A stretch of 64,000 nucleotides of DNA. Origin: Cordylochernes scorpioides. Taxonomy: Eukaryota > Arthropoda > Arachnida > Pseudoscorpiones > Chernetidae. Both the position numbers and the translations under genes were made by a program. The stretch lies in the NCBI GenBank assembly GCA_030710605.1, contig CP092876.1, positions 59,464,252 through 59,528,251 of the forward strand. The letters run 5' to 3'. The notes under the pieces were generated by a model. The model did not search any database and was not told where the DNA came from. It was given only the letters and a program-made list of their open reading frames with translations. Positions 18,731 through 64,000 of the stretch are shown in pieces; positions within the stretch are counted from its first letter, which is position 1, and the number at the start of each line of letters is the position of its first letter.

Positions 18731-18734
18731 ATAT

Positions 18735-39698: not shown

Positions 39699-39719
39699 CA
39701 AATCCAACCTACAATCACA

Positions 39720-40760: not shown

Positions 40761-40865
40761 GACAAGTATTTGAGGGGGAGCTCTAATAAACACCGGTGTA
40801 TAAGCTTTATATATATATAATTCCGTTTTTAACTCTTGCTATGTTAAACATTTTGAATATTTATA

Positions 40866-41030: not shown

Positions 41031-41061
41031 TATTTATTTATATGTATTTAAATATTTGGAA

Positions 41062-41077
41062 GGGGGGGGGGGGGGGG
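41062..41077 (+). repeat. 16-base G run
   Basis: Homopolymer, possible quadruplex and assembly-error site. Confidence 0.85.
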
Positions 41078-41559: not shown

Positions 41560-41582
41560 TCTCTCTCTCTCTCTCTCTCTTA
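41560..41582. repeat. (CT)n microsatellite
   Basis: Eleven CT units. Confidence 0.9.
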
Positions 41583-41630
41583 TATATTCATATTGATTCA
41601 TTTTTGTAATCAACCGTATGTACAATCATG

Positions 41631-41836
41631 GACAAAATTAAGGAAGTGGATAGTCTTTGATGTCGTCTTTTTTTTTTTTTTTTTAGGAGACAGAGGCATT
41701 TTTTCGTTTACATTTGGTTATCTCGCGTCTTTAATAAAGGTCACTGTTGTGTATCAAATATCTTTAAGACTTACTGTCTGAATCTCGATATACATGCTAA
41801 AAGTTACAACTTGCTTATGTTTTGTCCATGAGTGTA
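41631..41836. mobile_element. Tc1-type MITE, family A copy 4 (inverted)
   Basis: Ends TACAATCATGGACAAAAT and TTTTGTCCATGAGTGTA; interior matches the other copies in reverse orientation. Confidence 0.82.
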
Positions 41837-41974
41837 GTTTCGAATTTATCACCCCGTCGCTTTAAAAAATGTTCAATTATAAATAAATATATTTTAATTT
41901 CTTTATATATATTCGCCAAGATTTTAGACTCAACTTTTGTACGGCTTTAATCCAGAAGGATTGTCTATTAGTAA

Positions 41975-42152
41975 TACAGTGGAACCTCCATGAGAGGACA
42001 CTCGCGCTAGAAGACACCGCTTTACAAAGGATTAATTTGCAAAATTACCATTTTTACTATTTAGTAAATATCCGGTAAGAGGACATCTCTCCCTAAAGGA
42101 CACTTTGGCTCTACAATTAGGTGTTGTCCTTTTACAGGGAAGTTCTACTGTA
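41975..42152. mobile_element. Pogo/Tigger-like MITE, second family
   Basis: Ends TACAGTGGAACCTCCATGAG and ACAGGGAAGTTCTACTGTA form an imperfect inverted pair at TA. AGAGGACA words recur inside. Non-coding, 178 bp. Confidence 0.75.
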
Positions 42153-42660
42153 GTAGATATGGCGTACATCGCGGCGGTTTATTTGTAAAGTAAAATATCG
42201 CTCCTAGCTGCTTCCAAGCATTTTTTATGTGATTCTCGTTAGTTATTTCTATTCTATAGAGAAACTTTAAAAACAAAAGCTTAGCCTATATCGGTCTACA
42301 TATCCTCAAATTCCCCCGTCACGTGTGGGACAGGCTATGGTTCTATGTCAATTATTCGAGCCCAACAAAAGTGGAGGCCAAAACGCTAGCTGAAATATCC
42401 TATTTCCGTTACGTCATACACAATATGCATAATGCATGATATCTGCAGCTCATTAAAAAAAGGGGGGAAATCAATAACAGCCTTTCACACACTACCTCTT
42501 CGAGACAATGGAAACTTAAATATAGAGTCTATTAGGATAGGTTGCTGAACAATAGTAGACTTGTAGTTAAAATGTGATTTTCAAGAAAACAAACATATGA
42601 ATATATCTTCGACGAACGAAGAAGTAAGGATATGTGCAAAAATAATGAACAAAACTGCTT
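42153..42660. other. AT-rich spacer, no gene seen
   Basis: Nothing recognised. Confidence 0.45.
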
Positions 42661-42677
42661 CCGAGGGTGAGTTTCTT

Positions 42678-42804
42678 GCTTTATTGTATATTCTTCTCAA
42701 GCTTTCGGGTTTTACAAACCCTTCTACAGGATTTAGATCAAATACTCCTATAGAAGGATTTGTAATATACCCTAAAGAGCTTGAGAAGAATATAAAATAA
42801 AGGA
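42678..42804. repeat. Foldback with hammerhead-like arms
   Basis: Arms 42681-42730 and 42747-42798 are inverted repeats. On the minus strand the left arm reads CTGTAGA, A, GGGTTT/AAACCC helix, GAA, AGCT, T, GAG: the same order as at 43901-43942. The right arm is decayed. Confidence 0.75.
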
Positions 42805-43073
42805 AGAAACCTGTTGTGTATGTAAATAGATGATTTGCATTCTTTAAAGCCTCATTATGTAAAAATATATGTGTATATAAATTGGACATTTTTGTTGTTG
42901 GGGAGTCGGAAGAATAAGAGCTAAATAAAAAGACATGTTCAAGTGTGAGTTGCTGTACGTCTAATTTCGACACAACAAAACCCATCCTCGGAAGATATTT
43001 TGTTTATTATTGTATATGTATACAGAGGATTTCGCTTTTCCGAAGAAAGGATCAGGCCTCTAATGCCCTAGAG

Positions 43074-43477
43074 CAGGGATCGGCAACCTTTTGAGTTGGA
43101 AGAGTCAAAAATTACAATTTACAAAGTTTTTTAAAGAGCTACACAATTTTTTTCTTTCCAACAATAAATAGTACTCGTATAAATAATATTTACGTATGGA
43201 ACTATTTAAAAAGCCACAGCTTCACATCCAAAGACAATTAAAATAATTTTATTGACATCTTGTCAATACATGCAAAGAATACGGAAATATATTTATTTAC
43301 GGGGCTGCTAACCAGAATGGATGATTTTAAGCCCCTTTGGACGCATAAAGCGGAATATATACAAAGCACTATATACCTTGCACTGTTGGAGGGGGCTGGG
43401 GATGGGTGGCCAGGGAAAAGAATACGTAGATTCATATCCAAAGATTCGCGTGTGTCTCGCGAGCCGCAGGTTGCCGA
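43074..43477. mobile_element. hAT-type MITE, copy 2, interrupted
   Basis: Starts CAGGGATCGGCAACC after CCCTAGAG and ends GGTTGCCGAC before CCTAGAG, so hAT ends and a target duplication are visible. An insertion at about 43236-43440 splits the interior. Confidence 0.8.
43224..43440 (-). mobile_element. Insertion inside hAT MITE, retroposon-like
   Basis: About 205 bp flanked by a 13-base direct repeat TTCACATCCAAAG / TTCATATCCAAAG. On the minus strand it ends with AATAAAATTATTTTAATTG, like a transcript 3' end with a polyadenylation signal. Probably a truncated retroposed transcript or SINE; source not recognised. Confidence 0.5.
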
Positions 43478-43792
43478 CCTAGAGCCGTATTGTATTGAGA
43501 TCTGGGAAGACATCATCAAGCCAGTAAAAAACAACGGCATCCAGTAAGGTGAACGAAGGCTGGGAGAACAGCAAGATGACAACATCCAGTTAATGACACG
43601 GCGCTGAGATATTAATAACCTCGGGTCGAATCCGGGAGGAAGGAAGGAAGGAGAAAGTGACTCGTGTAAATAAAATAGCTTGCTGTGTCTCTTTGTGTCC
43701 AATATTACAGATTCCTATATGTAGATAATGACTGAGGTTGTTTTTTAAGTAGTAGAGTAGAAATATAAATACTATGTATATACAATAAAGTC

Positions 43793-43996
43793 TTGAGTAA
43801 AAATATCAGGCCTCCAGGGAAAAGTATATTTTCAAAAACCTTTTAAAAATCTCAAGCTTTCGGGTACAAACGCCCTTCTACAATAGAATACAAATGGTAT
43901 AATCTCCTGTAGAAGGGCGTTTGTGCCCGAAAGCTTGAGATTTTTAAAGGTTTTTGAAAAGATACTTTTCCCTGGAGGCCTGATATTTTTACTCAA
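43793..43996. repeat. Foldback element with hammerhead-like core, best copy
   Basis: Arms 43793-43880 and about 43900-43996 are near-perfect inverted repeats. The right arm holds AATCTC 43901-43906, CTGTAGA 43907-43913, A, GGGC 43915-43918, six-base loop, GCCC 43925-43928, GAA 43929-43931, AGCT 43932-43935, T 43936, GAGATT 43937-43942. AATCTC and GAGATT form a perfect six-pair helix I. Only the fourth core base departs from CUGANGA (U for A), and one A is extra before helix II. The left arm gives a second copy on the minus strand. Confidence 0.85.
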
Positions 43997-44027
43997 TAAT
44001 GATTACAAGGGATTATTTTATTGTTGT

Positions 44028-44108
44028 TTTCGTGTCCAATGAAGAGCCTCAGATGTCCCCATGCATTTCTATCACAGCAGTTGTCCTCTATCTTTGTTGC
44101 ATGTCCTA
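44028..44108 (-). repeat. Single diverged unit of the 111-bp minisatellite
   Basis: In reverse orientation it matches the array at 27013-27556 through CTGCTGTGATAGAAATGCAT, GACATCTGAGG and TTCATTGGACACGA. The array therefore grew from a dispersed repeat. Confidence 0.8.
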
Positions 44109-44406
44109 TAAGTTTTTGTGCCATCTGGATGTGTCATAGTGTTCCGTTCTGAGTCGATTATTTTATTGAAGCATTAAAGTGTATTTAATTGTAGATACTA
44201 AATGGAGAGAGGCATACAGTTGTTGTTCTATGTACCTGTTTCTATCCCTTGGTCCTCAAGTTTTGTTTCGATGTGTTTTCTGTAATGTTTAGTTTAAAAG
44301 CTTGAGCGATCTGTCAGACCGATGTGTTGACCCAAGTATTGTTATCAAGTTTTTAAATACGGGAAATCAGAGTGTAATGGCTTTCTTTACGTCCAATTCT
44401 GTTGAA

Positions 44407-44905
44407 CTTAATTTTTTTCAATAGATTCAATTATAATACATTGATGGCTTATGATTGTAAAACAACATTTGACAATTATCCTCGTAAATATTATATAAAG
44501 CCATTTATAATACAATATAATGCGGCTTATGATTGTCGTAAATGAATGAAAGGAAGAAAAAAATTGCAACGAGTTTCTTTATACTTATACTTATTCTAAA
44601 TAAAGAAACTCGTTGCAAATTTTTTCTTCCTTTCATTCATTGAATATCTAATTGCAATTATTTAGGATTTTATTGTGTATTGTCGTAAATATTTATTTAT
44701 TAAAACAATGACACTTTATTTTTCCGTTTATCATTACTCTTCACAATTCATCCTTTCATACTTCATCCCTAAGGTTAGAAATAATCGTTATTTCTCCTTT
44801 AAATAAATTTCTTTTTTCGCTCAAAAGAAACATATGCGGGATAATTGTCAAATGTCGTTTTAGATTCAATTATATTGAATCTATTGAACGTAATTTCATT
44901 TTTAT
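44407..44905. repeat. Nested inverted repeats
   Basis: Outer arms 44415-44490 and 44848-44905 are reverse complements (ACATTTGACAATTATCC, CAATAGATTCAAT). Inside, 44541-44582 and 44599-44640 make a 42-bp hairpin with a 16-base loop. No ORF. Likely a non-autonomous element inserted into another foldback. Confidence 0.85.
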
Positions 44906-45248
44906 TCTCCAAACTCTAAGTCAGAATTCTCTTCTAAGATTAAATTCAAAGAAGAACCTAAATCCATCAAATTTATATATATATAGCATTTTTCATGGAT
45001 AAAACAAATTCAAATAATAGAAAACCGTAGGCGGACATTGCAACACAGGATTGTGTGTAACTCAACTTCCCGGGGAAAAGTAATCAGTAAAAGGCGGAAC
45101 ATACTCACCTAATAATAGATATAATATGCAAATATATATGTGAAAATGTAAGAAAATATAAATGTTTTAACAAAAGAGGCGCCTCTTCCATTAAGAATCA
45201 TTGAAACAGTACAATTTTATGGGAATTTTTTTTTAAGAGATGCCTCTT
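44906..45248. other. AT-rich spacer, no gene seen
   Basis: Nothing recognised. Confidence 0.45.
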
Positions 45249-46035
45249 TTAGTACATAAAGATCACTTAAAAAACATTTTGAAAAAGAAAAAAAAAAAAG
45301 GTTTGAAATGTGGATTTAAAAAAAAAAAAAGAGGTAAAAATACAATTATATTATGATGCATTAGCGCGCCATCTGTTATCCACTGATGAGCCAGGCCTTT
45401 CCCATTGCAGTAAGGACAGTAGAAATTGCTTATTTTTAAAAAGAATCCTACGCGTCTATAATAGTTTCGAATTTTGATAAAAATACAATGTTATTGAAAT
45501 GAATGTTTTCGGTAAGAATAAGCTGAAGGCATTCTTCAAGGATTTATTATTAGCTCTGAAATCTATTAAAACACAGCTCCACCTAGTAACAACATCATCC
45601 GCCCAAATTTGGACGGGTTACACTTATATCTCAAAACCATCTGGGGACTTTTCCAGGCTCATCTGCAGAAGGTTCAGTGAAAATGGTGAATTTGCAAGGA
45701 GAGCAAGTTTTAGTACATAAAGATCATTTAAAGAACATTTTGAAAAAAAAAATTTGAAATGTGGATTTAAAAAAAAAGTGAGCTAAAAAAATACAATGTT
45801 ATTGAAAAGATTGAAATGGAAGTTTTTTCGGTTATAAGAAGCTGAAGGCATTCTTCAAGTATTTATTATTATCTCTGAAATCTATTATAACATAACTCTA
45901 CCTAATAACAACAACATCGGCCCAATTTGGACGGGTTAGAACTTACATCACCCGCTCACGTCCATCTAAGACTTTTCCAGGCTCATCTGCAGAAGGTTCA
46001 GTAAAAATGGTGAATTTGCAAGGAGAGCAAGTCAA
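45249..46035. repeat. Diverged tandem duplication of about 310-330 bp
   Basis: Order A (45249-45350), gap, B (45483-45706), A' (45709-45788), B' (45789-46035). B and B' share GAAGGCATTCTTCAAG, CCCAA-TTTGGACGGGTTA and a 47-base block with one difference (45658-45708 versus 45986-46032). The conserved block begins after TTTTCCAG and ends in GAGAGCAAGT; see findings. Confidence 0.85.
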
Positions 46036-46477
46036 AATCCACCTAGTATGCCTTTATAATAATCCAAATAGGAATGAATATATTTGCTTACATAGAATTA
46101 CTGACAATTAATTTACCACATTTAGAAAGAGGAGTCTCGCAAACAGACATCTCCCAAGACCTAAGGATGATAACGTCTTTGGTTTCAAACACCACAAAAG
46201 ATCTGCGTAAAGATTTGTTTTTTAAAAATTCGATATATCATCTAAAATTGATAGTAAGAGGGCTTAATTTTACTACACATGAAAAAAAGCATTTTTTTTT
46301 TTTTTTTTTTTTATATCTTAAAGGTAATATGTGCATATAATGTATAGGCATTTTAATTCAACATTTTTAGGTTTGTAGGCGAGTGAAATATATTTATACA
46401 ACTTTTTAAGTACAAAAGATTTTGTAAAATAAAAATAATACCAATGTGAAATTGTACTGGGATAAGGTGAATAAATT
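46036..46477. other. AT-rich spacer, no gene seen
   Basis: T20 run at 46292-46311. Nothing recognised. Confidence 0.45.
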
Positions 46478-46815
46478 AAGAAAAGGGCATCTCTTTATTG
46501 TGAAACTGAAAGTTGCTGATGGCTTGCGCCATCTGTCGGGATAAATATCAACACACTTCTGGCCTTAACTGCCCGTTTCATGATTTTTCAGGATACCTGA
46601 ATGACTAGTTTTTTTGGTCGTTGAGGTACAGCTTGCACCACGCTGACGAGGGTCAACAGCCCGAAATGCGTACGTGGTTAGCTTTTCTTGATTAATCAAG
46701 AATGGGCAAATTCTGGAATAATTAAAAATCAACAGATTAGTTAATATTTATTCCGATAGATGACGCAAGCTATCAGCAACTTTCAGTTGCACGATAAGAT
46801 GCTATTTTCTTAATA
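46478..46815. mobile_element. Foldback element carrying a hammerhead ribozyme
   Basis: 338 bp. Arms 46478-46552 and 46739-46815 are reverse complements over about 75 bp, including AACTGAAAGTTGCTGAT and the GCGCCATCTGTCGG motif. The ribozyme at 46627-46685 lies in the loop. No coding capacity. In form it matches an inverted pair of terminal repeats, as seen in Penelope-like elements, but no reverse transcriptase is nearby. Confidence 0.8.
46627..46685 (+). ncRNA. Hammerhead ribozyme, minimal type I, copy 2
   Basis: Helix I ACCACG 46637-46642 pairs perfectly with CGTGGT 46673-46678. Core CTGACGA 46643-46649. Helix II GGGT 46650-46653 / loop CAACA / GCCC 46659-46662. GAA 46663-46665. Helix III ATGCGT 46666-46671. 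Cleavage base A 46672. The upstream GGTACAGCTTGC and downstream TTAGCTTTTCTTGATTAA are shared with copy 1. Differences from copy 1 keep pairing: the 39225 A-C mismatch is G-C here. Confidence 0.78.
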
Positions 46816-47312
46816 AAATACTTTGTTTAGACAATATAAATAGTCGAGAAAAAGCCGGAGTTTCAAATAATTTACAGAAAATCTTTAAAATGGTTTCTCC
46901 AAGCCACTGCGGGCATAAGATCATTTTGATCTGGAATTACATTTAATGGAACAAATTTTTACCAAGTTTTTAGAACTTAATTGAATTTTAAAATAGACAA
47001 AATTGATTTTTTTTAATTCGTCCGAGAAAGGAAGGAAGGGGATGATGCATCTATTTAGTTTGCAGACTTCGTTATCTGTTTATAGACTCTTGAAGAGATT
47101 ACATTATATATAGAAAATTGAAAATTTATTTTTCTCAAATTTGGCTCTCACAATCTTGTTTATAAACATATCACGTTGCGGTATTTTGAGCTAAAGAGAT
47201 CCAGAAAAACGCACTGGTAACTAGAGCATCCATTGTGTAAGCGAGATATCAGGCAGGGAGGCCGATTTTTCATAACACTTTGAGAAAATTACAATATGTA
47301 CAAAATATGTAT
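46816..47312. other. AT-rich spacer, no gene seen
   Basis: Nothing recognised. Confidence 0.45.
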
Positions 47313-47599
47313 TACACTGGCCACAAAGAAAAAAAATCGCATCACCTATAAATACTTATGTTAAATATCTGAAAATTGTTGAGCTGTATAATGGTAATAT
47401 GAAAAATAATTGAAATTTCGAAAAAAATGGTGTAAATTTATTGAAATATACATCTTTTATCAATATTTGGTGTGTCCTCCTTTGGCACATATACAAGCAG
47501 TTACACGGTGATGTATACTGTCATACAGTTTTTTTAATGGCTTCTTGTGGGATGCTAGACCAAACTATATCATTTTTTATTCGAAGCTGTTGAAGATTA

Positions 47600-48240
47600 C
47601 TTGGCTGTGGAGATTGTCAAATTTTCCTCACCATCATGCCCCATACATGCTCAATTGGGGAAAGTTCTGGGGAACATGCGGGCCAGGGAAGGATGCCAAC
47701 ATTTTGAAGGAAGGCTCGTGAGATGTTGGTTGTACGTGGTCGGGCATTATCTTGTTGGAAAATGGCATTGTTAGCCACCTCAAGAAATGGTAACACAACA
47801 GGTTGCAACACATCTGCAATGTGAAGCTGAGCAGTCATTGAGAGTTGAATAAAAACTAAAGGGGTCCTACTTACATAGCTGATGCCACCATCACATCATG
47901 AAGCTAGGGTTCGTGTCGTATGCCTTTCCACAATACAGTCCTGATGGGATCTTTCTTGGACCTACGTCTAACATGTATCCTGACGTCATGATCCCCCAAA
48001 CTAAATATGATTCATCAGAAAAAATGACAGGATGCCATTTTTGAGCCCAAAGACGTCTCTTTATACACCAGCTTAGTCTGTCATTTTAGTGTCTGGCAGA
48101 GAGTGGAATTCTTAATAAAGGCCGGCGACTACGGAGTTCTGCTTTGATAAGACGGTATTTAATGGTGTTCAGAGATGGTCCAGATTCATTCTACACATGT
48201 ACAGTTGTTGTCCTGTCTGTTACAACCATCCTTCGAATCC
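47600..48240 (-). pseudogene. Tc1-like transposase pseudogene
   Basis: The C-terminal catalytic part is readable at 47617-47838: FQQDNARPRTTNISR with the second acidic residue, and PWPACSPELSPIEHVWG with the final Glu, 32 residues later by my count. Upstream to 48240 the middle domain (DHDVRIHV, RRRSKKDPIRT) is readable in broken frames. Stops and indels throughout; the N-terminal DNA-binding domain is not recognisable. It belongs to the DDE Tc1 family rather than mariner. Confidence 0.85.
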
Positions 48241-48272
48241 TCCTATCTTCTCTCTCTATTATTACTCTAGGT

Positions 48273-48462
48273 CGGCAAACTGCGGTTCTTTCGATGTGAA
48301 GCTGCGGCTCTTTATATAGTTCCATACGCAAATATTATTTATGCGAGTACTATTTATTGTTTCCACAAAAAAAAAAAAAACATTTTGTGGCTCTTTAAAA
48401 ACTTTAAAATTTTGTAAATTGTATTTTTTGACTCTTTCGACCCAAAAGTTTGCCGACCCCTG
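48273..48462 (-). mobile_element. hAT-type MITE, copy 3, nested in Tc1 element
   Basis: Ends with GTTTGCCGACCCCTG at 48462, flanked by CTCTAGGT on both sides (48265-48272 and 48463-48470). The first few bases of the left end are missing. Inverted relative to copy 1. Confidence 0.85.
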
Positions 48463-49185
48463 CTCTAGGTCTACCTGAGACAGGTTTTTTTTAAACTTTT
48501 CTCTTCCTCTTCATCACTGAGACCAAATCTTTACAACAGTACTTTTATTGCAGCGCCTACTTTCATAGCAATTTCTCTAGTCAAAATTCCACCCTATGAG
48601 GCCTATGTTTCTGCCTCTTGTAAAATCAGAAATTTGCGAATATGACGACGACTTTTAATTCTTCCTTGGATTCTTCATATTAAAGATTATCTTCATTTTT
48701 TTTTTTTTAAATAAGATAAATTTAATAAATAATACATTAGGAAGCTTTTTAAAATAAACTTCCATGAATAAACAAGGCTGTTATTTTATCCCCTTATATT
48801 CTAGTTACGGTTTCAGAAAATTTATCATTTACATACCTTAATGTTCTTATTAAGTATGTATATTTTCTAAGTGTTTGTAGGTTATGCACTTTGTGAGGCC
48901 AGTGTAGTTTCAAGCAAAAGGTTATGTTATGTTTGGTGGATTATAATTTTGAGATTAAGACGGGTTCCAATCGACTTCTTTAATAAACATTCAGAGTCAT
49001 TAAAATTTTGAACGTGTATTACATGAACTTGGAAATAATTGTTCAGGTATAAATAAAATTACGAAAAATTGAAACATTTTTAACGTACAACAAAAACATG
49101 TATTTCAAAAAGAAGGGTATTTTCGAATAGAACTCGTTAATGCCCCAGTCGATGTCAGCCATTAAAAGTAATAAAAATGCAAATT

Positions 49186-49408
49186 TACACTCGTAGACAA
49201 AACTTAAGGAAGTTATACCTTTTAGCGTGTATATGGGGATTCAGACAATAACTCTGAAAGATGTTACAGTAACCTTTATTGAAGACGCACGAGATGATAA
49301 CCAAGTGTGAACAAAATTGCCTCTCTATCTTTCAAAAAAAAAAAAAAAAGAACAGACCGCCGGATATCAAAGACTTTGAACTTCTTTAAGTTTTGTCGAT
49401 GAATTTAG
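49186..49408. mobile_element. Tc1-type MITE, family A copy 5
   Basis: Ends TACACTCGTAGACAAAAC and GTTTTGTCGATGAATTTA. Interior matches copies 1-4; a poly-A run expanded at 49332-49349. Confidence 0.82.
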
Positions 49409-49899
49409 ATAATTCGATTTTTTTTTTTTTTTTTTTGTCCCTTGGGCTTCCGATTACCCAAGTTCGACTGTATATCCGAACCAAAATAGCGACCTTGTTT
49501 GAATTCTCCATTCAGTTTTTTATTCTTTGAATTATCGAATATTGAATATTTACATCACACAAAAAGAAATATGTTTCAAATATCTTTCTATCACACCACA
49601 CAAGTATTTTGCACACGTTTATTTAAAGAGGGAAGACTGAGTATAAATATATGTTAAACGATAAATCAAAGAATAAAAAACTGAATGGAGAATTCAAACA
49701 AGGTCGCTATTTTGGTTCGGATATAGTCGAACTTGGGTAATCGGAAGCCCAAGGGACAAAAAAAAAAATTCGAATTATCTAAAAATTTGAATTAAAAACA
49801 TTTTGAATAAAAGGGACTAAATTCTAGGAACCAAGATGAATATTTGAATTTGAGACATTTTCGAAGTGAAGATGTTCAAATTATCTAAGTTTGACTGTA
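49406..49899. mobile_element. Pogo-like foldback element
   Basis: Inverted arms 49406-49530 and 49666-49780, about 120 bp and nearly identical (CCCTTGGGCTTCCGATTACC and complement). The right end 49870-49899 has a second pogo/Tigger-type terminus reading TACAGTCAAACTTAGATAAT on the minus strand. Loop of 135 bases without an ORF. Confidence 0.85.
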
Positions 49900-50376: not shown

Positions 50377-51702
50377 TACGAGGTGTGTTCAAAAAGTATC
50401 GCGACCTTTGAATTTTCGCGGGTTACGTATATTCGAATTTCGATCTTTTTGTGGCTTTATGTTGGTACTCATGTCTCTCACTTATGCCGACAAGCTCGGC
50501 CATTTTGAATGTTCACTTAATTGTTGACAGCTGCTTTGCTTGCAGGTGTTTTGGATCGTCTTCAATTTTTACCTATTTAAAAAAAAATGGATCAAAGAAC
50601 CTGTATCAAATTTTGTGTGAAAAACGAAATTAAGTGCGCGGATGCATTCCGAATGTTGACTGTGGCATACGAAGAAGCTACCTTGGACCGAAGCAACGTT
50701 TATCGGTGGTACAAAATGTTCTCAGAAGGTGAGAAGATGTGAACGGCGAAGTGCATGCCGGACGCCCGAGCACTTCAGCAACAGACGAAAAAATTAATGA
50801 AGTGGAGAAAATGATATTGGCCAATCGTCGAATCACCGTTAGAGAAGTTGCCGAGGACCTAAACATATCGATTGGCTCGTGCCATTCGATTTTTATCAAT
50901 GATTTGGGCATGAGACGGGTCGCCGCGAAATTCGTACCAAAATTGCTCAATTGCGACCAAAAACAGCATCGAATGAACATTGCTAATGAGATGTTGGACT
51001 GTCCGCGACGACCCAAATTTGCTCCAGAGGGTTATCACTGGTGACGAAGCGTGGGTTTATGGTTATGACGTGGAAACCAAAGATCAATCATCTCAATGAA
51101 AGCTGCCGCACGAACCAAGACCGAAAAAAGCGCGCCAAGTTCGGTCGAATGTGAAAGTTTTGCTGACAGTTTTCTTCGATTGCAGGGGCGTAGTGCATCA
51201 TGAGTTCTTGCCACAGGGTAGAACGGTCAATAAGGAATATTACCTGCAAGTTATGCGCAATTTGCGCGAAGCAATCCGCCAGAAACGCCCGGATTTGTGG
51301 AAGAACAAAAATTGGCTTTTGCACCACGATAACGCCCCTGCTCACGCATCGTTGCTTGTGCGCGACTTTTTGGCCAAAAACAACACACTAATGATGCCGC
51401 AGCCACCGTATTCCCCAGATCTGGCCCCCTGTGACTTTTTCTTGTCCCCTAAACTGAAGAGGCCCATGAAAGGACGACGTTACGCTACGCTTGACGAGAT
51501 AAAGACGGCATCGAAGGAGGAGCTGAAAAAGATTTTTTTTAAAGGATTTTTGAAGTGCTTCGAAGATTGGAAAAACCGTTGGCACAAGTGTATAATATCT
51601 CATGGGGATTACTTTGAAGGGGACAAAATAGGTATTCATGAATAAATAAATAATTTTTGAAAAAAACACAAAAGTCGCGATACCTTTTGAACACACCTCG
51701 TA
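50377..51702 (+). mobile_element. Mariner-family transposon, nested
   Basis: 1326 bp. Inverted ends of about 30 bp begin TACGAGGTGTGTTCAAAAAG on both strands, with TA edges. Encodes a near-complete plus-strand transposase. Inserted in the loop of an older foldback. Confidence 0.94.
50587..51645 (+). pseudogene. Mariner transposase, nearly full length, few lesions
   Basis: About 345 codons from ATG 50587 (MDQRTCIKFCVKNE) to 51645. The N-terminal helix-turn-helix pair, the linker (RVAAKFVPKLLNCDQKQ), ITGDEAWVYGYD, LLHHDNAPAHAS and PYSPDLAPCDFFL are all present. By my count 34 residues separate the last two Asp, the mariner DD34D signature. Lesions: a one-base loss near 50737, a small deletion near 51003-51010, a TGA near 51098 where Trp is expected, and a T-run near 51533. 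The least decayed mariner in the window, but inactive as it stands. Confidence 0.93.
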
Positions 51703-51885: not shown

Positions 51886-52179
51886 TTTTCATAATTTTAT
51901 CAAGAATAGAGATTTATATCAAAAACCTACTGACAAACCTAGGAATGGGGGGATTAAAAGACTACCATATGGCTCAAAGTACGGCTTGTATTTGAGCTGA
52001 GATTTAGGAAAGAGAGGAAGGAAACAAAAGCTCTTTATGCGAAAAAACAATAGATAGTGAGCCAAATGACATTGGCCTTCCTAAGCTGTTGTGTTGAGAT
52101 GCCAATTACCTACCGTGTAAACACCACGGTCAAGTAGACAGTTTGCTGATACATTATCTTTGTCACCTGTGTGGGTAGG
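51886..52179. other. Spacer before the satellite, no gene seen
   Basis: Nothing recognised. Confidence 0.45.
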
Positions 52180-55100
52180 TCGTGTTGTAACGGTAATTAT
52201 CGTGTTAACGCCACTTCTACTCTGTGTTGTACTACACCGCTGTACTGTCGTGCTGTAACTGTAATTATCGTGTTAACCCCGCATCTTCTACTCCGTGTTG
52301 TACTACACCGCTGTACTGTCGATTTGTGACGGTAATTATCGTGTTAACCTCGCATCTTCAACTCCGTGTTTTACTACACCGCTGTACTGTCGTGTCGTGA
52401 CGGTAATTATCGTTTTAACCCCGCATCTTCTACTCTGTGTTGTACTACACTGCTGTACTGTCGTGTTGTGACGGTAATTATCGTGTTAACCCCGCATCTT
52501 CTACTCCGTGTTGTACTACACCGCTGTACTGTCGTGTCGTGACGGTAATTATCGTGTTAACCCAGCATCTTCTACTCCGTGTTGTACTACACCGCTGTAC
52601 TGACGTGTTGTGACTGTAATTATCGTGTTAACCCTGCATCTTCTACTCCGTGTTGTACTACACCGCTGTACTGACGTGTTGTGACTGTAATTATCGTGTT
52701 AACCCCGCATCTTCTACTCCGTGTTGTACTACACCGCTGTACTGTCGTGTTGTGACGGCAATTATCGTGTTAACCTCGCATCTTCTACTCTGTGTTGTAC
52801 TACACCGCTGTGTTGTCGTGTCGTGACTGTAATTATCGTGTTAACCCCGCATCTTCTACTCCGTGTTGTACTACACCGCTGTACTGTCGTGTTGTGACGG
52901 CAATTATCGTGTTAACCTCGCATCTTCTACTCTGTGTTGTACTACACCGCTGTACTTTCGTGTTGTGACGGCAATTATCGTGTTAACCCCGCATCTTCCA
53001 CTCTGTGTTGTACTACACCGCTGTACTGTCGTGTTGTAACTGTAATTATCGTTTTAACCCCGCATCTTCTACTCCGTGTTGTACTTAACCGCTGTACTGA
53101 CGTGTTATGACGGCAATTATCGTGTTAACCCCGCATCTTCTACTCCGTGTTGTACTACACCGCTCTACTGTCGTGTCGTGACGGCAATTATCGTGTTAAC
53201 CCCGCATCTTCTACTCCGTGTTGTACTACACCGCTGTACTGTCGTGTCGTGACGGTAATTATCGTGTTAACCCTGCATCTTCTACTCCGTGTTGTACTAC
53301 ACCGCTGTACTGACGTGTTGTGACTGTAATTATCGGGTTAACCCTGCATCTTCTACTCCGTGTTGTACTACACCGCTGTACTGACGTGTTGTGACTGTAA
53401 TTATCGGGTTAACCCTGCATCTTCTACTCCGTGTTGTACTACACCGCTGTACTGACGTGTTGTGACTGTAATTATCGTGTTAACCCCGCATCTTCTACTC
53501 CGTGTTGTACTACACCGCTGTACTGTCGTGTTGTGACGGCAATTATCGTGTTAACCTCGCATCTTCTACTCTGTGTTGTACTACACCGCTGTACTGTCGT
53601 GTCGTGACGGTATTTATCGTGTTAACCCAGCATCTTCTACTCCGTGTTGTACTAAACCGCTGTACTGTCGTGTTGTGACGGTAATTATCGTGGTAACCCC
53701 GCATCTTCTACTCCGTGTTGTACTACACCGCTGTACTTTCGTGTTGTGACGGTAATTATCGTGGTAACCCCGCATCTTCTACTCCGTGTTGTACTACACC
53801 GCTGTACTTTCGTGTTGTGACGGCAATTATCGTGTTAACCCTGCATCTTCTACTCTGTGTTGTACTACACCGCTGTGTTGTCGTGTCGTGACTGTAATTA
53901 TCGTGTTAACCCCGCATCTTCTACTCCGTGTTGTACTACACCGCTGTGTTGTCGTGTCGTGACTGTAATTATCGTGTTAACCCCGCATCTTCTACTCCGT
54001 GTTGTACTACACCGCTGTACTGTCGTGTTGTGACGGCAATTATCGTGTTAACCTCGCATCTTCTACTCTGTGTTGTACTACACCGCTGTGTTGTCGTGTC
54101 GTGACTGTAATTATCGTGTTAACCCCGCATCTTCTACTCCGTGTTGTACTACACCGCCCTACTGTCGTGTCGTGACGGTAATTATCGTGCTAACCCCGCA
54201 TCTTCTACTCCGTGTTGTACTACACCGCTGTACTGTCGTGTTGTGACAGTAATTATCATGTTATCCCCGCATCTTCTACTCCGTGTTGTACTACACTGCT
54301 GTAATGTCGTGTCGTGATGGTAATTATCGTGTTAACCCCGCATCTTCTACTCCGTGTTGTACTACACCGCTGTACTGTCGTGTTGTGATGGTAATTATCG
54401 TGTTAACCCCGCATCTTCTACTCCGTGTTGTACTACACCGCTGTACTGTCGTGTCGTGACGGTAATTATCGTTTTAACCCCGCATCTTCTACTACGTGTT
54501 GTACTACACCGCTGTACTGTCGTGTTGTGACGGTAATTATCGTGTTAACCCCGCATCTTCTACTCTGTGTTGTACTACACCGCTGTACTGTCGTGTTGTG
54601 ATGGTAATTATCGTGTTAACCCCGCATCTTCTACTCCGTGTTGTACTACACCGCTGTACTGTCGTGTCGTGACGGTATTTATCGTGTTAACCCCGCATCT
54701 TCTACTCTGTGTTGTACTACACCGCTGTACTGTCGTGTCGTGACTGTAATTATCGTGTTAACCCCGCATCTTCTACTCCGTGTTGTACTACACCGCTGTA
54801 CTGTCGTGTTGTGATGGTAATTATCGTGTTAACCCCGCATCTTCTACTCCGTGTTGTACTACACCGCTCTACTGTCGTGTCGTGACTGTAATTATCGTGT
54901 TAACCCCGCATCTTCTACTCCGTGTTGTACTACACCGCTGTACTGTCGTGTTGTGACGGCAATTATCGTGTTAACCCCGCATCTTCTACTCCGTGTTGTA
55001 CTACACCGCTGTACTGTCGTGTTGTGATGGTAATTATCGTGTTAACCCTGCATCTTCTACTCCGTGTTGTACTACACCGCTGTACTGTCGTGTTGTGATG

Positions 55101-58100
55101 GTAATTATCGTGTTAACCCTGCATCTTCTACTCCGTGTTGTACTACACCGCTGTACTGACGTGTTGTGACTGTAATTATCGTGTTAACCCTGCATCTTCT
55201 ACTCCGTGTTGTACTACACCGCTGTACTGTCGTGTCGTGACGGTAATTATCGTGTTAACCCCGCATCTTCTACTCCGTGTTGTACTACACCGCTGGACTG
55301 TCGTGTCGTGACGGTATTTATCGTGTTAACCCCGCATCTTCTACTCCGTGTTGTACTACACCGCTGTGTTGTCGTGTCGTGACTGTAATTATCGTGTTAA
55401 CCCCGCATCTTCTACTCCGTGTTGTACTACACCGCTGTACTGTCGTGTCGTGACGGTATTTATCGTGTTAACCCCGCATCTTCTACTCCGTGTTGTACTA
55501 CACCGCTCTACTGTCGTGTTGTGACGGTAATTATCGTGTATACCCCGCATCTTCTACTCCGTGTTGTACTACACCGCTGTAATGTCGTGTCGTGACGGTA
55601 TTTATCGTGCTAACCCCGCATCTTCTACTCCGTGTTGTACTACACCGCTTTACTGTCGTGTCGTGACTGTAATTATCGTGTTAACCCCGCATCTTCTACT
55701 CCGTGTTGTACTACACCGCTGTACTGTCGTGTCATGGCGGTAATTATCGTGCTAACCCCGCATCTTCTACTCCGTGTTGTACTACACCGCTGTACTGTCG
55801 TGTCATGACGGTAATTATCGTGCTAACCCCGCATCTACTCCGTGTTGTACTACACCGCTGTACTGTCGTGTCGTGACGGTAATTATCGTGCTAACCCCGC
55901 ATCTTCTACTCCGTGTTGTACTACACCGCTGTACTGTCGTGTCGTGACTGTAATTATCGTGCTAACCCCGCATCTTCTACTCCGTGTTGTACTACACCGC
56001 TGTACTGTCGTGTCGTGACTGTAATTATCGTGCTAACCCCGCATCTTCTACTCCGTGTTGTACTACACCGCTGTACTGTCGTGTCGTGACTGTAATTATC
56101 GTGCTAACCCCGCATCTTCTACTCCGTGTTGTACTACACCGCTGTACTGTCGTGTCATGACGGTAATTATCGTGCTAACCCCGCATCTACTCCGTGTTGT
56201 ACTACACCGCTGTACTGTCGTGTCGTGACGGTAATTATCGTGCTAACCCCGCATCTTCTACTCCGTGTAGTACTACACCGCTGTACTGTCGTGTCGTGAC
56301 TGTAATTATCGTGTTAACCCCGCATCTTCTACTCCGTGTTGTACTACACCGCTCTACTGTCGTGTCATGACGGTAATTATCGTGCTAACCCCGCATCTTC
56401 TACTCCGTGTTGTACTAAACCGCTGTACTGTCGTGTCATGACGGTAATTATCGTGCTAACCCCGCATCTTCTACTCCGTGTTGTACTACACCGCTCAACT
56501 GTCGTGTCATGACGGTAATTATCGTGCTAACCCCGTATCTTCTACTCCGTGTTGTACTACACCGCTGTACTGTCGTGTCATGACGGTAATTATCGTGCTA
56601 ACCCCGCATCTTCTACTCCGTGTTGTACTACACCGCTGTACTGTCGTGTCATGACGGTAATTATCGTGCTAACCCCGCATCTTCTACTCCGTGTTGTACT
56701 ACACCGCTGTACTGTCGTGTCATGACGGTAATTATCGTGCTAACCCCGCATCTTCTACTCCGTGTTGTACTACACCGCTCTACTGTCGTGTCATGACGGT
56801 AATTATCGTGCTAACCCCGCATCTTCTACTCCGTGTTGTACTACACCGCTGTACTGTCGTGTCGTGACTGTAATTATCGTGCTAACCCCGCATCTTCTAC
56901 TCCGTGTTGTTCCACACCGCTGTACTGTCGTGTCGTGACGGTAATTATCGTGTTAACCCCGCATCTTCTACTCCATGTTGTACTACACCGCTGTACTGTC
57001 GTGTCGTGACTGTAATTATCGTGCTAACCCCGCATCTTCTACTCCGTGTTGTACTACACCGCTGTACTGTCGTGTCGTGACGGTAATTATCGTGCTAACC
57101 CCGCATCTTCTACTCCGTGTTGTACTACACCGCTGTACTGTCGTGTCGTGACGGTAATTATCGTGCTAACCCCGCATCTTCTACTCCGTGTTGTACTACA
57201 CCGCTGTACTGTCGTGTCGTGACGGTAATTATCGTGCTAACCCCGCATCTTCTACTCCGTGTTGTACTACACCGCTGTACTGTCGTGTCTTGACGGTAAT
57301 TATCGTGTTAACCCCGCATCTTCTACTCCGTGTTGTACTACACCGCTGTACTGTCGTGTTGTGACGGTATTTATCGTGTTAACCCCGCATCTTCTACTCC
57401 GTGTTGTACTACACCGCTGTACTGTCGTGTCGTGACGGTATTTATCGTGTTAACCCCGCATCTTCTACTCCGTGTTGTACTACACCGCTGTACTGTCGTG
57501 TCGTGACGGTAATTATTGTGTTAACCCCGCATCTTCTACTCCGTGTTGTACTACACCGCTGTACTGTCGTGTCGTGACGGTATTTATCGTGTTAACCCCG
57601 CATCTTCTACTCCGTGTTGTACTACACCGCTGTACTGTCGTGTCGTGACGGTATTTATCGTGTTAACCCCGCATCTTCTACTCCGTGTTGTACTACACCG
57701 CTGTACTGTCGTGTCGTGACGGTAATTATCGTGTTAACCCCGCATCTTCTACTCCGTGTTGTACTACACCGCTGTACTGTCGTGTCGTGACGGTAATTAT
57801 CGTGCTAACCCCGCATCTTCTACTCCGTGTTGTACTACACCGCTGTACTGTCGTGTCGTGACGGTAATTATCGTGTTAACCCCGCATCTTCTACTCCGTG
57901 TTGTACTACACCGCTCTACTGTCGTGTCATGGCGGTAATTATCGTGCTAACCCCGCATCTTCTACTCCGTGTTGTACTACACCGCTCTACTGTCGTGTTG
58001 GGACGGTATTTATCGTGTTAACCCCGCATGTTCTACTCCGTGTTGTACTACACCGCTGTACTGTCGTGTCGTGACTGTAATTATCGTGTTAACCCCGTAT

Positions 58101-60431
58101 CTTCTACTCCGTGTTGTACTACACCGCTGTACTGTCGTGTCGTGACGGTATTTATCGTGTTAACCCCGCATCTTCTACTCCGTGTTGTACTACAACGCTG
58201 TACTATCGTGTCGTGACGTTATTTATCGTGTTAACCCCGCATCTTCTACTCCGTGTTGTACTACACCGCTGTACTGTCGTGTCGTGACGGTATTTATCGT
58301 GTTAACCCCGCATCTTCTACTCCGTGTTGTACTACACCGCTGTACTGTCGTGTCGTGACGGTATTTATCGTGTCAACCCCGCATCTTCTACTCCGTGTTG
58401 TACTACACCGCTGTACTGTCGTGTCGTGACGGTATTTATCGTGTTAACCCCGCATCTTCTACTCCGTGTTGTACTACACCGCTGTACTGTCGTGTCGTGA
58501 CGGTATTTATCGTGTTAACCCCGCATCTTCTACTCCGTGTTGTACTACACCGCTGTACTGTCGTGTCGTGACGGTATTTATCGTGTTAACCCCGCATCTT
58601 CTACTCCGTGTTGTACTACACCGCTGTACTGTCGTGTCGTGACGGTATTTATCGTGTTAACCCCGCATCTTCTACTCCGTGTTGTACTACACCGCTCTAC
58701 TGTCGTGTCGTGACGGTATTTATCGTGTTAACCCGCATCTTCTACTCCGTGTTGTACTACACCGCTGTACTGTCGTGTCGTGACGGTATTTATCGTGTTA
58801 ACCCCGCATCTTCTACTCCGTGTTGTACTACACCGCTGTACTGTCGTGTCGTGACGGTAATTATCGTGATAACCCCGCATCTTCTACTCCGTGTTGTACT
58901 ACACCGCTCTACTGTCGTGTTGGGACGGTATTTATCGTGTTAACCCCGCATCTTCTACTCCGTGTTGTACTACACCGCTGTACTGTCGTGTTGGGACGGT
59001 ATTTATCGTGTTAACCCCGCATCTTCTACTCCGTGTTGTACTACACCGCTCTACTGTCGTGTTGGGACGGTATTTATCGTGTTAACCCCGCATCTTCTAC
59101 TCCGTGTTGTACTACACCGCTCTACTGTCGTGTTGGGACGGTATTTATCGTGTTAACCCCGCATCTTCTACTCCGTGTTGTACTACACCGCTGTACTGTC
59201 GTGTTGGGACGGTATTTATCGTGTTAACCCCGCATCTTCTACTCCGTGTTGTACTACACCGCTCTACTGTCGTGTTGGGACGGTATTTATCGTGTTAACC
59301 CCGCATCTTCTACTCCGTGTTGTACTACACCGCTCTACTGTCGTGTTGGGACGGTATTATTCGTGTTAACCCCGCATCTTCTACTCCGTGTTGTACTACA
59401 CCGCTGTACTGTCGTGTTGTGACGGCAATTATCGTGTTAACCCCGCATCTTCTACTCCGTGTTGTACTACACCGCTGTACTGTCGTGTCGTGACGGTATT
59501 TATCGTGTTAACCCCGCATCTTCTACTCCGTGTTGTACTACACCGCTCTACTGTCGTGTTGGGAAGGTATTTATCGTGTTAACCCCGCATCTTCTACTCC
59601 GTGTTGTACTACACCGCTCTACTGTCGTGTTGGGACGGTATTTATCGTGTTAACCCCGCATCTTCTACTCCGTGTTGTACTACACCGCTCTACTGTCGTG
59701 TCGTGACGGTATTTATCGTGTTAACCCCGCATCTTCTACTCCGTGTTGTACTACACCGCTCTACTGTCGTGTTGGGACGGTATTTATCGTGTTAACCCCG
59801 CATCTTCTACTCCGTGTTGTACTACACCGCTGTACTGTCGTGTCGTGACGGTATTTATCGTGTTAACCCCGCATCTTCTACTCCGTGTTGTACTACACCG
59901 CTCTACTGTCGTGTCGTGACGGTATTTATCGTGTTAACCCCGCATCTTCTACTCCGTGTTGTACTACACCGCTCTACTGTCGTGTTGGGACGGTATTTAT
60001 CGTGTTAACCCCGCATCTTCTACTCCGTGTTGTACTACACCGCTGTACTGTCGTGTCGTGACGGTATTTATCGTGTTAACCCCGCATCTTCTACTCCGTG
60101 TTGTACTACACCGCTCTACTGTCGTGTCGTGACGGTATTTATCGTGTTAACCCCGCATCTTCTACTCCGTGTTGTACTACACCGCTCTACTGTCGTGTTG
60201 GGACGGTATTTATCGTGTTAACCCCGCATCTTCTACTCCGTGTTGTACTACACCGCTCTACTGTCGTGTTGGGACGGTATTTATCGTGTTAACCCCGCAT
60301 CTTCTACTCCGTGTTGTACTACACCGCTCTACTGTCGTGTTGGGACGGTATTTATCGTGTTAACCCCGCATCTTCTACTCCGTGTTGTACTACACCGCTC
60401 TACTGTCGTGTTGGGACGGTATTTATCGTGG
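52180..60431. repeat. 71-bp satellite array, about 116 copies
   Basis: Head-to-tail 71-bp units built around TGTTGTACTACACCGCTGTA, CTGTCGTGTCGTGACGGT and TATCGTGTTAACCCCGCATC. The left edge is degenerate (52180-52320); the right edge is abrupt at 60431. Variants form blocks: TGTAATTATCG forms left of about 55500, GTGCTAACC about 55600-57290, GGTATTTATCG about 57350-58800, and TTGGGACGG with GCTCTACTG 58900-60431. Units lacking TTC occur near 55830 and 56185, inside copies of the same multi-unit segment. 71 is not a multiple of 3; the many short ORFs are not genes. Confidence 0.98.
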
Positions 60432-60587
60432 AAATTTAGCCGGGAGGATATTGATCTACAAATACAAAGGTCACCTCTATCATCAAAATAGACGTTAAAA
60501 CTAGACGCCATCTATTGATCGTCTAGCAAATTAGTGGAGACAGGTCAGTGACAAAGCCACAATACCAGGTTTGGCAAACTGAGAAGA
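60432..60587. other. Junction between satellite and ribozyme
   Basis: Unique sequence with GACGCCATCTATTG at 60504-60517, related to the GCGCCATCT motifs near other ribozyme and foldback copies. Confidence 0.4.
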
Positions 60588-60640
60588 GTCCACCTGGAGA
60601 CCATGGTTTCAGGCTAATGGCCCTCGTCAGTCCAGGGAGG
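60588..60640 (-). ncRNA. Hammerhead ribozyme, minimal type I, minus strand
   Basis: Read on the minus strand: helix I CCTGGA (60636-60631), core CTGACGA (60630-60624), helix II GGGC (60623-60620) / loop CATTA / GCCT (60614-60611), GAA (60610-60608), palindromic helix III ACCATGGT (60607-60600), cleavage base C (60599), helix I TCCAGG (60598-60593). CCTGGA and TCCAGG pair perfectly, and the cleavage triplet is GUC, the preferred one. Helix II closes with one G-U pair. Lies 160 bases past the satellite. The best-formed ribozyme in the window. Confidence 0.8.
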
Positions 60641-60949
60641 AATTTATTTCACAAGTTCCACAAGGGATCTAATGACATATTCACGATCCTCCAAAGAGGT
60701 GTTTAGCTGCCAAGGTGGCAAGGCCAAAATATTCATTTTCTATTCCATTCTTACTATTTCACAAGATATTTACGCAAATTTGGACTATATACTTATTTCT
60801 TGATTGCACGGGAAACTTCTTGAGCCAATAGTGCTTTGTCGTTGACGTACCTCTGGGCATAAAGAACTCAGATGAGAGTTGAGATGCCCCACCTACTGTA
60901 CATAGATCCAATCTGTATAATACGTAAAACACATTTATTTGACATTTAG

Positions 60950-61000
60950 GTACAGCCTGCAACACGCTGACGAAGACCAACACCCAGAATCGCGTACGTT
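60950..61000 (+). ncRNA. Decayed hammerhead ribozyme, copy 3 of the 39211 family
   Basis: GGTACAGCCTGCAACACG, CTGACGA (60967-60973), CAACA loop, AGAATCGCGTACG and GGCTTTTCTTGATT align with copies 1 and 2. Helix II and helix I pairing are lost. Confidence 0.65.
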
Positions 61001-61010
61001 TTTGGCTTTT

Positions 61011-62590
61011 CTTGATTTATCAATAAATAGGTTAGGACAAATATTACAGAACAAACCTAATCCAACATTTAGTTTGCATTTGTTCAACTCTATGGCGTTC
61101 TGCCATCTAAAAATGACCGTGTGCGCGGTTAAAATGTGACCTTTTTTTTTTTTTTTTAAATACTAACAACTGACCATTATCTTTTTTTCTTACTTTTTAT
61201 ATCGATAGAAGAAAGTAAAAATGGAATGATCAAAAATGTAACTGTTAAGTCTCGGCATTTGCGGATTCTTTTCTATTCAGTCATCATTAAAAATGCCAAC
61301 AGAGAACGTGATGTATTTTAGAATCGACGAGAGATATGAAGCAAATTACATTCTCCTTCTCGAAGGTATTCTTTCATTTGCCATCCAACTTTCTTGAATC
61401 TATAATGGGGGAGATAGAGCGAATAGAACGAAATATCACTGGGGGATAAACATCGTTCCAAATGGGATGATGATGTTATGTTTACCATTTGTTCACGTTT
61501 TCCTTCTAGGAAGTCTTTCTAATATCTTAGAATACTTAACAATGTATGGATCTTCAACACTCTTTCCCTAAAAGTAAAGGTTCTATGAGATGAGGTAAAA
61601 AAATGTATGTAAATGTAAAAGTATTTATTATATTTTATGTACAGATTATTATTATTTTTTATTATTATATTTTGCTACTCTATGGAAACTTCTCTAATTG
61701 CTTATCTTGTACCTTATAAAAGTTGATGTTATTCTTGCCTTAAATAAATTGCTGTGTCATTCTGAAGTTTGTCTTTCCTAATTTTCTATGTGACAATTAT
61801 ATTAGTGGACGTGTATACAGAACCAAATCATAAACCAGAAAACGCACTTTTACCACCGTAAAACAGAATGTCGTAACTGCGGTAAACTAAGGAGCTATGC
61901 TAACTTTGAACGATGTGTATCTAGAGGCATAAACGGGAGACATGAATCGCTCTCCCTCCGTGGCTGGGAAAGCCGAATGGGAACAGAGTGGTCACAAATG
62001 AGATTCCTTTGGCGCCTGCGCGAAAGGTTGAAGAGTCCCCGGGGGCCCAGATGTTTACTAACAACAACTTCCTGAGGTCCAGAGGGATCTGTACCTCCTG
62101 GGAGGATTGAACAACTTAGGTAGCACCTATTTGTCAATTCCCTAACATGGATCAAGTGTGAGCACCCCCTTCAAATATTTGAAATCTAAGTTAATTCGTT
62201 TTATACCGATGCAAATGTGGGTTCCAGTAATTTTGAGGGGCATGTAAACGCCTTTTCTCCCTAATTACGGAAGAATAATCGGGAAAAATTGCAGTGAAAG
62301 CACTCTGAGAGAACATATAAATGCTTTTCTTAAACACGAGTCACTTAAAAGTAACAGAAAGGCCATTTACACATTGCAAAAGTTTATAAACCAATATTTT
62401 AGCATAGAGCTTAACTCTAATATATAATATTAGTTAATAATACCTTATATGTTAATCGAATACGAATACATATCTTCAGCTTTGAATACGAGATTTTTCC
62501 TCTCAATCCTTTGTACATTTTGATATAACAATTTTTTATCTACACGTAGAATTTTATTTTGATTAATAAAGTATTTTTCAATTGTAAATG
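61011..62590. other. AT-rich region, no gene seen
   Basis: Poly-T at 61142-61158. TATAAAAG near 61717 and AATAAAT near 61743 could be an LTR remnant, but no pair was found. A GC-richer stretch 61900-62130 is open on the minus strand (86 codons) without a recognised domain. Confidence 0.35.
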
Positions 62591-63245
62591 CATCGAATAA
62601 ATACTTCTAAACGTTGAGAGGCAAACATAGATTGGATGGCATGTACAGGTATAGCTTCCCATGTAGCTTCAACCCATGAATGCCACAGCTCATTGACAGT
62701 AGAGACGAGCCAGTGGCTCAGCAACCATCGACCAGACGTTTTCTATTGGTAACAGATCAGGAGAACGCACTGGCCAGGGCAGCAGTCAAACATTTTCTGT
62801 ATGTAGGAAGGTCCGTACAATGCTGGCAAACTGCGATTGTTAATTATCCTGCTGAAACGTAGCGTTTCCCAGGCCTCGAATAAAGGGTACCGCGTCACGG
62901 GCCTTAACACGTCATAAATATAACAGGGGCTTTCCAAAGAGCCGAGAATGCGAACAAGAGATGGCCGAAACGCGTATCAAATGGCACCCGGTGCCATCAC
63001 TCCAGGTAATGGACCAGTATGACGATGTCGAATGCACGCTGGCAAAGTGCCTTCTCCATGATGGCGCCAAACACAGATTCGGCCATCATGATGCTGCTAA
63101 CAGAACCTGGATTCGTCTTAAAGAATGACGTCACGCCATTTCTAAGTTCAGATTCGTCGTTGATCACACCATTGAGGGCGCTCCTTTTCGTAATATAGCG
63201 TCAAGGGTGGCCGAAGGGTGCTCGACTGCACGGACCGTAAGACCT
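62591..63245 (-). pseudogene. Tc1-like transposase remnant
   Basis: Broken minus-strand frames give, in order, DESRFCLQHHDGR and VWRHHGER near 63030-63110 (first catalytic Asp block), GVMAPGAI near 62990, and PWPVRSPDLLPIENVWSMV near 62705-62775 with the final Glu. An ELWHSWVEATWEAIPVHAIQ-like C-terminus follows to 62630. No TIRs identified. A different Tc1 lineage from 19340 and 47313. Confidence 0.8.
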
Positions 63246-63249
63246 TGGT

Positions 63250-63975
63250 TTGCGTGGATGGGAAAACTAATTCTCCAAACAATTTGGATCTTCCTCTCTC
63301 CTCCATTTATATTTATTACAAAGAAAAAAATAAGTTTTGAAGAAGTTGGATTTTGAAATTATACCTAAATGGCATTTTGTGATTTATTTGTGAAAGAGCA
63401 ATGTTCGATGCAGAGATATATGTATTTCTACTGTTCCCTAAGAGCTTATGCCCATACATTCTTTAAATACCATAACCAATAATTCCTTTCTAGAGCCGGG
63501 TATAAAAGTAGAATATCCCAATATCATATAAGATGTATGCACACATGCAATATCATAGCGGTCTGGTGGATTAAAGTGGTAAAACTGCTGGGAAGGTTCA
63601 CCATTGAGGTGAGATAAGCCCTCTCAATAAAATTTTCATTGTAAAAAGACAGAAGAAAGCTACCACTTTTTTTTAAGTCTATTTTTTCATCTAGATAAGA
63701 AGAGCGGTCTCATGATATCAAATAAGTGAACCATCGTGAAAACGTGAGTGCTGTGGAGAGATGAGAGGGGGGAGAAAATACAAATCATGCTTCAAATTTA
63801 GAAGGAAGAAAAAGTTTTTTAACCAAGCAAACTTTAAAAATGCAAGAAGTGGGACATTATTCTAAGTTACAACCCAACTTCTCCAAACTCTCTCTCTTTC
63901 TTCTTTGTAATAAATTTCAATGGAAGAGGAAGATCTCCAAATTGTTTGGGGAATTAGTTTCCGCAAGCCCCACAG
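63250..63975. repeat. Inverted repeat flanking a 550-bp spacer
   Basis: 63255-63335 and 63890-63972 are reverse complements with TTCTTTGTAATAAAT, GGAAGATC and CCAAATTGTTTGG shared. The interior has no gene. Possibly a non-autonomous element or the edges of one cut by the window end. Confidence 0.65.
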
Positions 63976-64000
63976 ACACCAAAGTTGATCACAGTCCACC

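Follow-up and report, generated by a model that had tools for sequence, protein, structure and literature searches.

A minimal type I hammerhead motif beside a satellite array of the pseudoscorpion Cordylochernes scorpioides, and its likely place in a dispersed repeat family

Close to one end of a tandem satellite array of the pseudoscorpion Cordylochernes scorpioides, the minus strand carries a short motif that an earlier note on this DNA took for a near-perfect hammerhead ribozyme, residing in a retroelement and possibly processing satellite-flanking transcripts. The locus thus raises the question of whether such a motif has arisen by chance, belongs to a repeated element that carries ribozymes, or serves the neighbouring satellite. 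We address it here within the window, that is, the whole 64,000-nucleotide stretch of DNA that was analysed.

The motif and its expectation by chance

The motif, referred to below as the focal hammerhead, consists of the following parts.

60593-60636, minus strand: minimal type I hammerhead motif, the focal hammerhead (descriptor scan, covariance model and fold)
60636-60631, minus strand: 5' half of helix I, CCTGGA (sequence)
60630-60624, minus strand: core, CTGACGA (sequence)
60623-60611, minus strand: helix II and loop, GGGC-CATTA-GCCT (sequence)
60610-60608, minus strand: GAA (sequence)
60600-60607, minus strand: helix III, the palindrome ACCATGGT, for which full pairing is possible only between two copies
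60599, minus strand: C ahead of the predicted cut
60598-60593, minus strand: 3' half of helix I, TCCAGG

The invariant core of the hammerhead comprises C3 U4 G5 A6 N G8 A9, followed by G12 A13 A14, the A15.1-U16.1 pair and H17. When the sequence is checked against it, the focal hammerhead contains the whole invariant core of type I hammerheads on the minus strand, so that the earlier reading, in which all conserved positions are filled, holds; the same is true of the six out of six pairs claimed for helix I (CCTGGA/TCCAGG), of the 8-base palindrome of helix III and of the GUC cleavage triplet, with the predicted cut at the 60599/60598 junction. The core, helix I, the palindrome and the triplet all accord with the description "near-perfect", from which helix II departs by opening with a G-U rather than a G-C pair, the sole flaw of the motif. 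Helices I and II are present, and helix III is a palindrome that is paired in the predicted dimer only.

A strict descriptor scan of both strands of the window returned 2 exact-core hammerheads, the focal one and another at 46643 on the plus strand, and a looser scan added a third at 39226 (plus strand), in which the first pair of helix I is A-C. That the focal motif is a chance product, an unrelated stretch meeting the hammerhead descriptor inside a window with true family copies, appears quite improbable. A simulation of 1.508 Gb of first-order Markov sequence (single strand) produced only 7 motifs with an exact core and at least 6, 4 and 3 pairs in helices I, II and III, respectively. This amounts to 5.9e-4 motifs expected by chance per window on both strands, against the 2 observed, a figure that is optimistic because the descriptor was devised after the motif had been seen. 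At the same rate, several chance motifs meeting the descriptor would be expected in a Gb-sized genome, which favours a fortuitous origin. The likeness of the focal hammerhead to four other copies, described below, is a stronger test than the chance count.

Rfam also sides with chance. Searches at gathering and permissive thresholds gave no hammerhead match for the focal motif, an outcome that the earlier note, which had proposed this check, had named as refuting; the matches obtained belong to other families, all below their own gathering scores. The best relative of the motif, located at 46 kb, is likewise without an Rfam hammerhead match and, since Rfam is blind to this relative too, its silence is not decisive against the focal hammerhead.

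A dispersed hammerhead family with compensatory changes in helix I

Comparison of the window with itself by blastn uncovered one repeat at 39162-39278, 46579-46695 and 60934-61026 on the plus strand and at about 1820-1893 on the minus strand, to which the focal hammerhead was not joined. These four copies contain the following hammerheads.

46617-46702, plus strand: the 46-kb copy, the best preserved of the family, with an intact core (CTGACGA at 46643) and a GUA triplet
39200-39285, plus strand: the 39-kb copy, with an intact core (CTGATGA at 39226), helix I opening with an A-C mismatch
60941-61026, plus strand: the 60.9-kb copy, decayed, with helix II broken (blastn and covariance model)
1816-1898, minus strand: the 1.8-kb copy, decayed, with a 3-nt core deletion and a compensated helix I pair (blastn and covariance model)

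The cores of the 60.9-kb copy and the focal hammerhead are about 340 bp apart and on opposite strands. We built a covariance model, R1, from these four copies and the hammerhead structure, leaving the focal hammerhead out of the training, and ran it over the whole window with filters off, the E-values of the tool being rough. R1 recovers its four sources and then the focal hammerhead, with 29.2 bits and an E-value of 6.9e-4 over positions 1-86, which argues against a chance motif; the next match has an E-value of 1.8. With a sequence-only profile of the core, the focal hammerhead is again the first match after the four sources (E 0.023). Two longer sequence-only profiles place it at E 0.14 and 0.44, outranked by one or two pieces, namely, an arm of the 46-kb copy and, in one of the profiles, also a box at 28.2 kb. 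The focal hammerhead is likely to represent a diverged copy of a short, dispersed repeat whose sense strand includes a minimal type I hammerhead.

The structure of the family points in the same direction. Pairs were counted in the five copies, in an alignment that was fitted to the covariance model and hence favours the structure of the model. All 6 pairs of helix I display two-sided change, in 7 cells, 5 of which are contributed by the focal hammerhead, the other two (columns 22-65) coming from decayed copies with A-U and U-A; across the five rows, 93.3% of the helix I cells are paired. The covariation of helix I reaches 0.500, compared to 0.216 ± 0.061 in shuffled alignments, none of which (0/500) scored as high, and the 6 pairs with two-sided change compare with 2.0 in shuffles (3/500 as high), whereas slid controls do not exceed a covariation of 0.117. 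In the same five-copy alignment, two-sided change is absent from helices II and III. Two other treatments were set aside: a MAFFT alignment of the five ribozymes, in which helix I of the focal hammerhead was misplaced, and a 16-row pair count, in which 11 rows were matches with E-values of 1.8 or worse.

In the core, the focal hammerhead carries the family majority at 11 of 11 columns, compared to 7 of 20 and 10 of 24 in the flanks. Judging from this sequence pattern, the ribozyme may have outlived its surroundings, as would be expected if it descended from a separate, once active subfamily. When the hammerhead columns are removed and 20 upstream and 24 downstream positions are scored together, only 159 of 127,826 positions match or beat the focal flanks, which is difficult to reconcile with chance. 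Most of the signal comes from the downstream flank: 437 of 127,954 positions are as good as this flank alone, and 7,866 of 127,962 as good as the upstream one. Among pairwise alignments of the focal flanks, the best is that with the 60.9-kb copy (4/2000 shuffles transition-weighted, 77/2000 unweighted), and most of the others are not significant, a point in favour of chance; over about 170-200 nt, the focal flanks align no better than shuffles (76-278/300 downstream, 25-297/300 upstream). Further downstream, the focal copy contains a short box.

60505-60514, minus strand: tail box TAGATGGCGT, 116 nt downstream of core C3 of the focal hammerhead

The box TAGATGGCGY, which was picked after the copies had been seen, occurs exactly at 3 of 127,980 window positions, two of which, in the focal hammerhead and the 1.8-kb copy, share the offset of +116 from core C3. 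This common offset is a further argument against a chance motif. A box with one mismatch is found at +114 in the 46-kb copy, and one with two mismatches at +122 in the 60.9-kb copy; the 39-kb copy has no tail box. The minus strand has three boxes of the CCRVYAGATGGCGC form: one belongs to the tail of the 1.8-kb copy (1747-1760), one to the left arm of the 46-kb copy (46526-46539), and one stands alone (28166-28179). These boxes and the tail box are reminiscent of a CTCF-type site. It is conceivable, if rather doubtful, that the pseudoscorpion has its own lineage of hammerhead elements of about 250-340 bp, with a tail box recalling a CTCF-type site about 116 nt past the core; separate subfamilies of it would have preserved the ribozyme through compensatory change as the remaining sequence drifted apart. 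Such a class would be recognised by the ribozyme and the tail box, and would lack LTRs, tandem units and ORFs.

Beyond the window, pattern scans of viral contigs gave 0 matching loci, and those of genome contigs gave 0 and 1 locus, the latter in Anaerocolumna. We rejected this locus, in which no hammerhead extends past the matched stretch and the lone R1 match falls elsewhere (E 0.27). Region 60432-61000 was unmatched in a phage collection. As the contig collections comprise viruses and prokaryotes, missing matches there say little.

Parent element, predicted cleavage and the neighbouring satellite

What kind of element the family derives from can be approached through its best preserved member.

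46475-46814, plus strand: copy of about 340 bp holding the 46-kb hammerhead, with inverted arms at 46475-46552 and 46740-46814

Its edges, read by eye, may carry a 4-bp duplication, TAAA. The arms are 84.6% alike over 78 columns, and the RNA is predicted to form one long hairpin of -157 kcal/mol, as would befit a family of fold-back (MITE-like) DNA elements in which the hammerhead is passively carried between inverted arms. Such a family nevertheless appears improbable, given that the arms of the 46-kb sequence are confined to that copy by the shuffle test. Inverted arms score above shuffles in the 46-kb copy (0/1000) and in the 39-kb copy (7/1000), the latter with a different sequence, and not in the 1.8-kb (312/1000), 60.9-kb (435/1000) or focal (742/1000) copies. 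Furthermore, the 1.8-kb copy has the right arm of the 46-kb copy (0/1000 shuffles) but not the left one (158/1000). Because only the right arm is common to the 1.8-kb copy and no other copy has the arms, the left arm probably arose when the 3' part of the family was duplicated locally in inverted orientation, and we rejected inverted arms as a family trait.

Pfam scans gave neither an RT nor a GIY-YIG domain in the six frames of 60432-64000, where the only matches were DDE_3 (E 0.013) and DUF6382 (E 0.024), both under the cut-offs, or in the plus-strand frames of 39001-49002 and the minus-strand frames of 1-2000. Tandem pseudo-LTR hammerheads were not found, the closest same-strand pair (39200 and 46617) being 7.4 kb apart with no Pfam domain between them on the plus strand, and the window has no tandem hammerhead units of the retrozyme kind (150-450 bp). 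A Penelope-like element is one candidate for the parent, a retrozyme that such an element mobilised another, although the defining features tested for either were not found in the parts of the window that were searched. Of the earlier proposal that the ribozyme resides in a retroelement, one part is retained: R1, the helix I covariation and the fold support a minimal type I hammerhead in a repeated element, with helix III fully pairing only as a dimer. Membership in a Penelope-like element is not upheld, there being no RT or GIY-YIG in the searched frames. We infer a retroelement parent for the focal hammerhead, as well as catalysis through a dimer.

The minimum-energy fold of two focal strands is a double hammerhead with an 8-bp helix III; the dimer gain of -5.6 kcal/mol is ordinary, with 157 of 200 shuffles gaining equally or more. 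None of the predicted dimers of the other four copies, with structures read by eye, is a double hammerhead. In the fold of the 53-nt focal monomer, helices I and II are kept and core bases pair with the cleavage triplet, and in a context of 221 nt the predicted fold is other than a hammerhead. Constraining the focal RNA to form helices I and II and leave the core open costs 4.4 to 6.3 kcal/mol. In the mechanism that we propose, read-through minus-strand RNA of the focal site would form helices I and II unaided. Since helix III is nothing more than a palindrome, two copies would have to come together for efficient cutting, either within one tandem transcript or as separate molecules, and the cut would leave a 2',3'-cyclic phosphate on C60599 and a 5'-OH on U60598. 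In the parent element, such cuts could trim or unitise the RNA ahead of reverse transcription.

The satellite offers a different role for the motif.

52179-60430, no strand: satellite array with a 71-bp unit in 116.4 copies, outside the hammerhead family

The array ends at 60430, in agreement with the distance of about 160 bases given earlier. The orientation and this distance would permit minus-strand RNA to be cut about 160 nt before the array, giving the satellite RNA a defined 5'-OH end, and hammerheads within satellites are known, as in the satellite pDo500 of Dolichopoda cave crickets (PMC2837043). We consider satellite processing highly improbable, given that the strict scan of 52179-60430 found no hammerhead inside the array and that a lone copy has no partner for its palindromic helix III. 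Only one of the four other copies, the 60.9-kb one, is close to the array, where it occupies the opposite strand; listed tandem repeats are at least 1.4 kb from the 1.8-kb, 39-kb and 46-kb copies. A comparison of the two array flanks showed no link among the first 40 alignment lines listed. The link between hammerhead and satellite is one of proximity alone, and the earlier suggestion tying the ribozyme to satellite-flanking transcripts finds no support in these data. The focal copy of the dispersed repeat probably came to lie beside the satellite as a passive insertion.

Known systems and other features of the window

Minimal type I hammerheads without helix III occur dispersed or in Penelope-like elements (PMC7761336, PMC6155905), whose hammerheads generally lack this helix (PMC6155905); they are reported to be without tertiary contacts between loops I and II, and their activity and role in the host elements are called still mysterious (PMC7761336). 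The hammerheads of Penelope-like elements and Terminons share with the window family the core, helix I, a short helix II, a helix III of few nucleotides, dispersal and the expectation of dimer cleavage (PMC7761336, PMC6155905), whereas the window family is without RT, GIY-YIG or a tandem pair in the searched regions. The Penelope-like hammerhead of Anolis reportedly cleaved only once its own protein had been added, and in this element, PAc, the ORF begins at stem II (PMC11167929). In contrast, the focal hammerhead has no ATG there, and the 39-kb copy, read by eye, has an ATG followed by a stop after 11 codons. The RNAs of metazoan non-LTR retrozymes measure about 170-400 nt (PMC7229834), a range that includes the 340-bp copy, and these elements likewise combine a type I hammerhead with a short unit; unlike them, the window has one hammerhead per dispersed copy and no tandem units. 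Hammerheads accompany interspersed repeats in mosquito and other organisms (PMC3088659). The hammerhead satellites, which besides pDo500 include those of newt and Schistosoma (Sm-alpha; PMC6155905), resemble the present case in that a hammerhead resides in repetitive DNA, but here the ribozyme is outside the satellite, the 71-bp array being empty in the strict scan.

The focal hammerhead thus looks like a further example of a known minimal kind, found in scattered repeats and not in the neighbouring satellite. In the literature collection queried, no paper combining hammerheads and pseudoscorpions was found. Minimal hammerheads of an arachnid genome can evade Rfam and yet surface with a model of their own family, and the compensatory changes in helix I make this family a system for asking what preserves ribozymes in dispersed elements. 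A satellite connection, if true, would be of wider interest.

The window contains several other repeats. Five long imperfect palindromes, 77-92% alike, are at 26107-26346, 42671-42810, 43793-43996, 44541-44641 and 49404-49783; three of them overlap sub-threshold Rfam miRNA matches, probably because they are hairpins. The units of a 111-bp tandem array at 27012-27559 share about 78 bp with 44022-44094, beside the palindrome at 43793-43996. Two Ty3/gypsy-like elements, at 3588-8761 and 13433-18734, have direct end repeats that are 99.7% and 99.2% identical, respectively, and are therefore probably recent insertions. A Ty3/gypsy ORF at 7020-8438 matches a Cordylochernes scorpioides protein along 89% of its length, with 98% identity; among the best 120 of 1,120 matches, at least 16, including the 12 best, are from this species, followed by spiders and ticks. 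Finally, pieces of mariner-like transposase ORFs, judged by eye, are present at 2337-2837, 33574-34158 and 9699-10271 on the minus strand and at 51100-51645 on the plus strand. The motif HDNAPxH is found in all of them except 9699-10271, which was assigned by its blastn match to 33574-34158, and the piece at 51100-51645 stops about 530 bp short of the satellite array.
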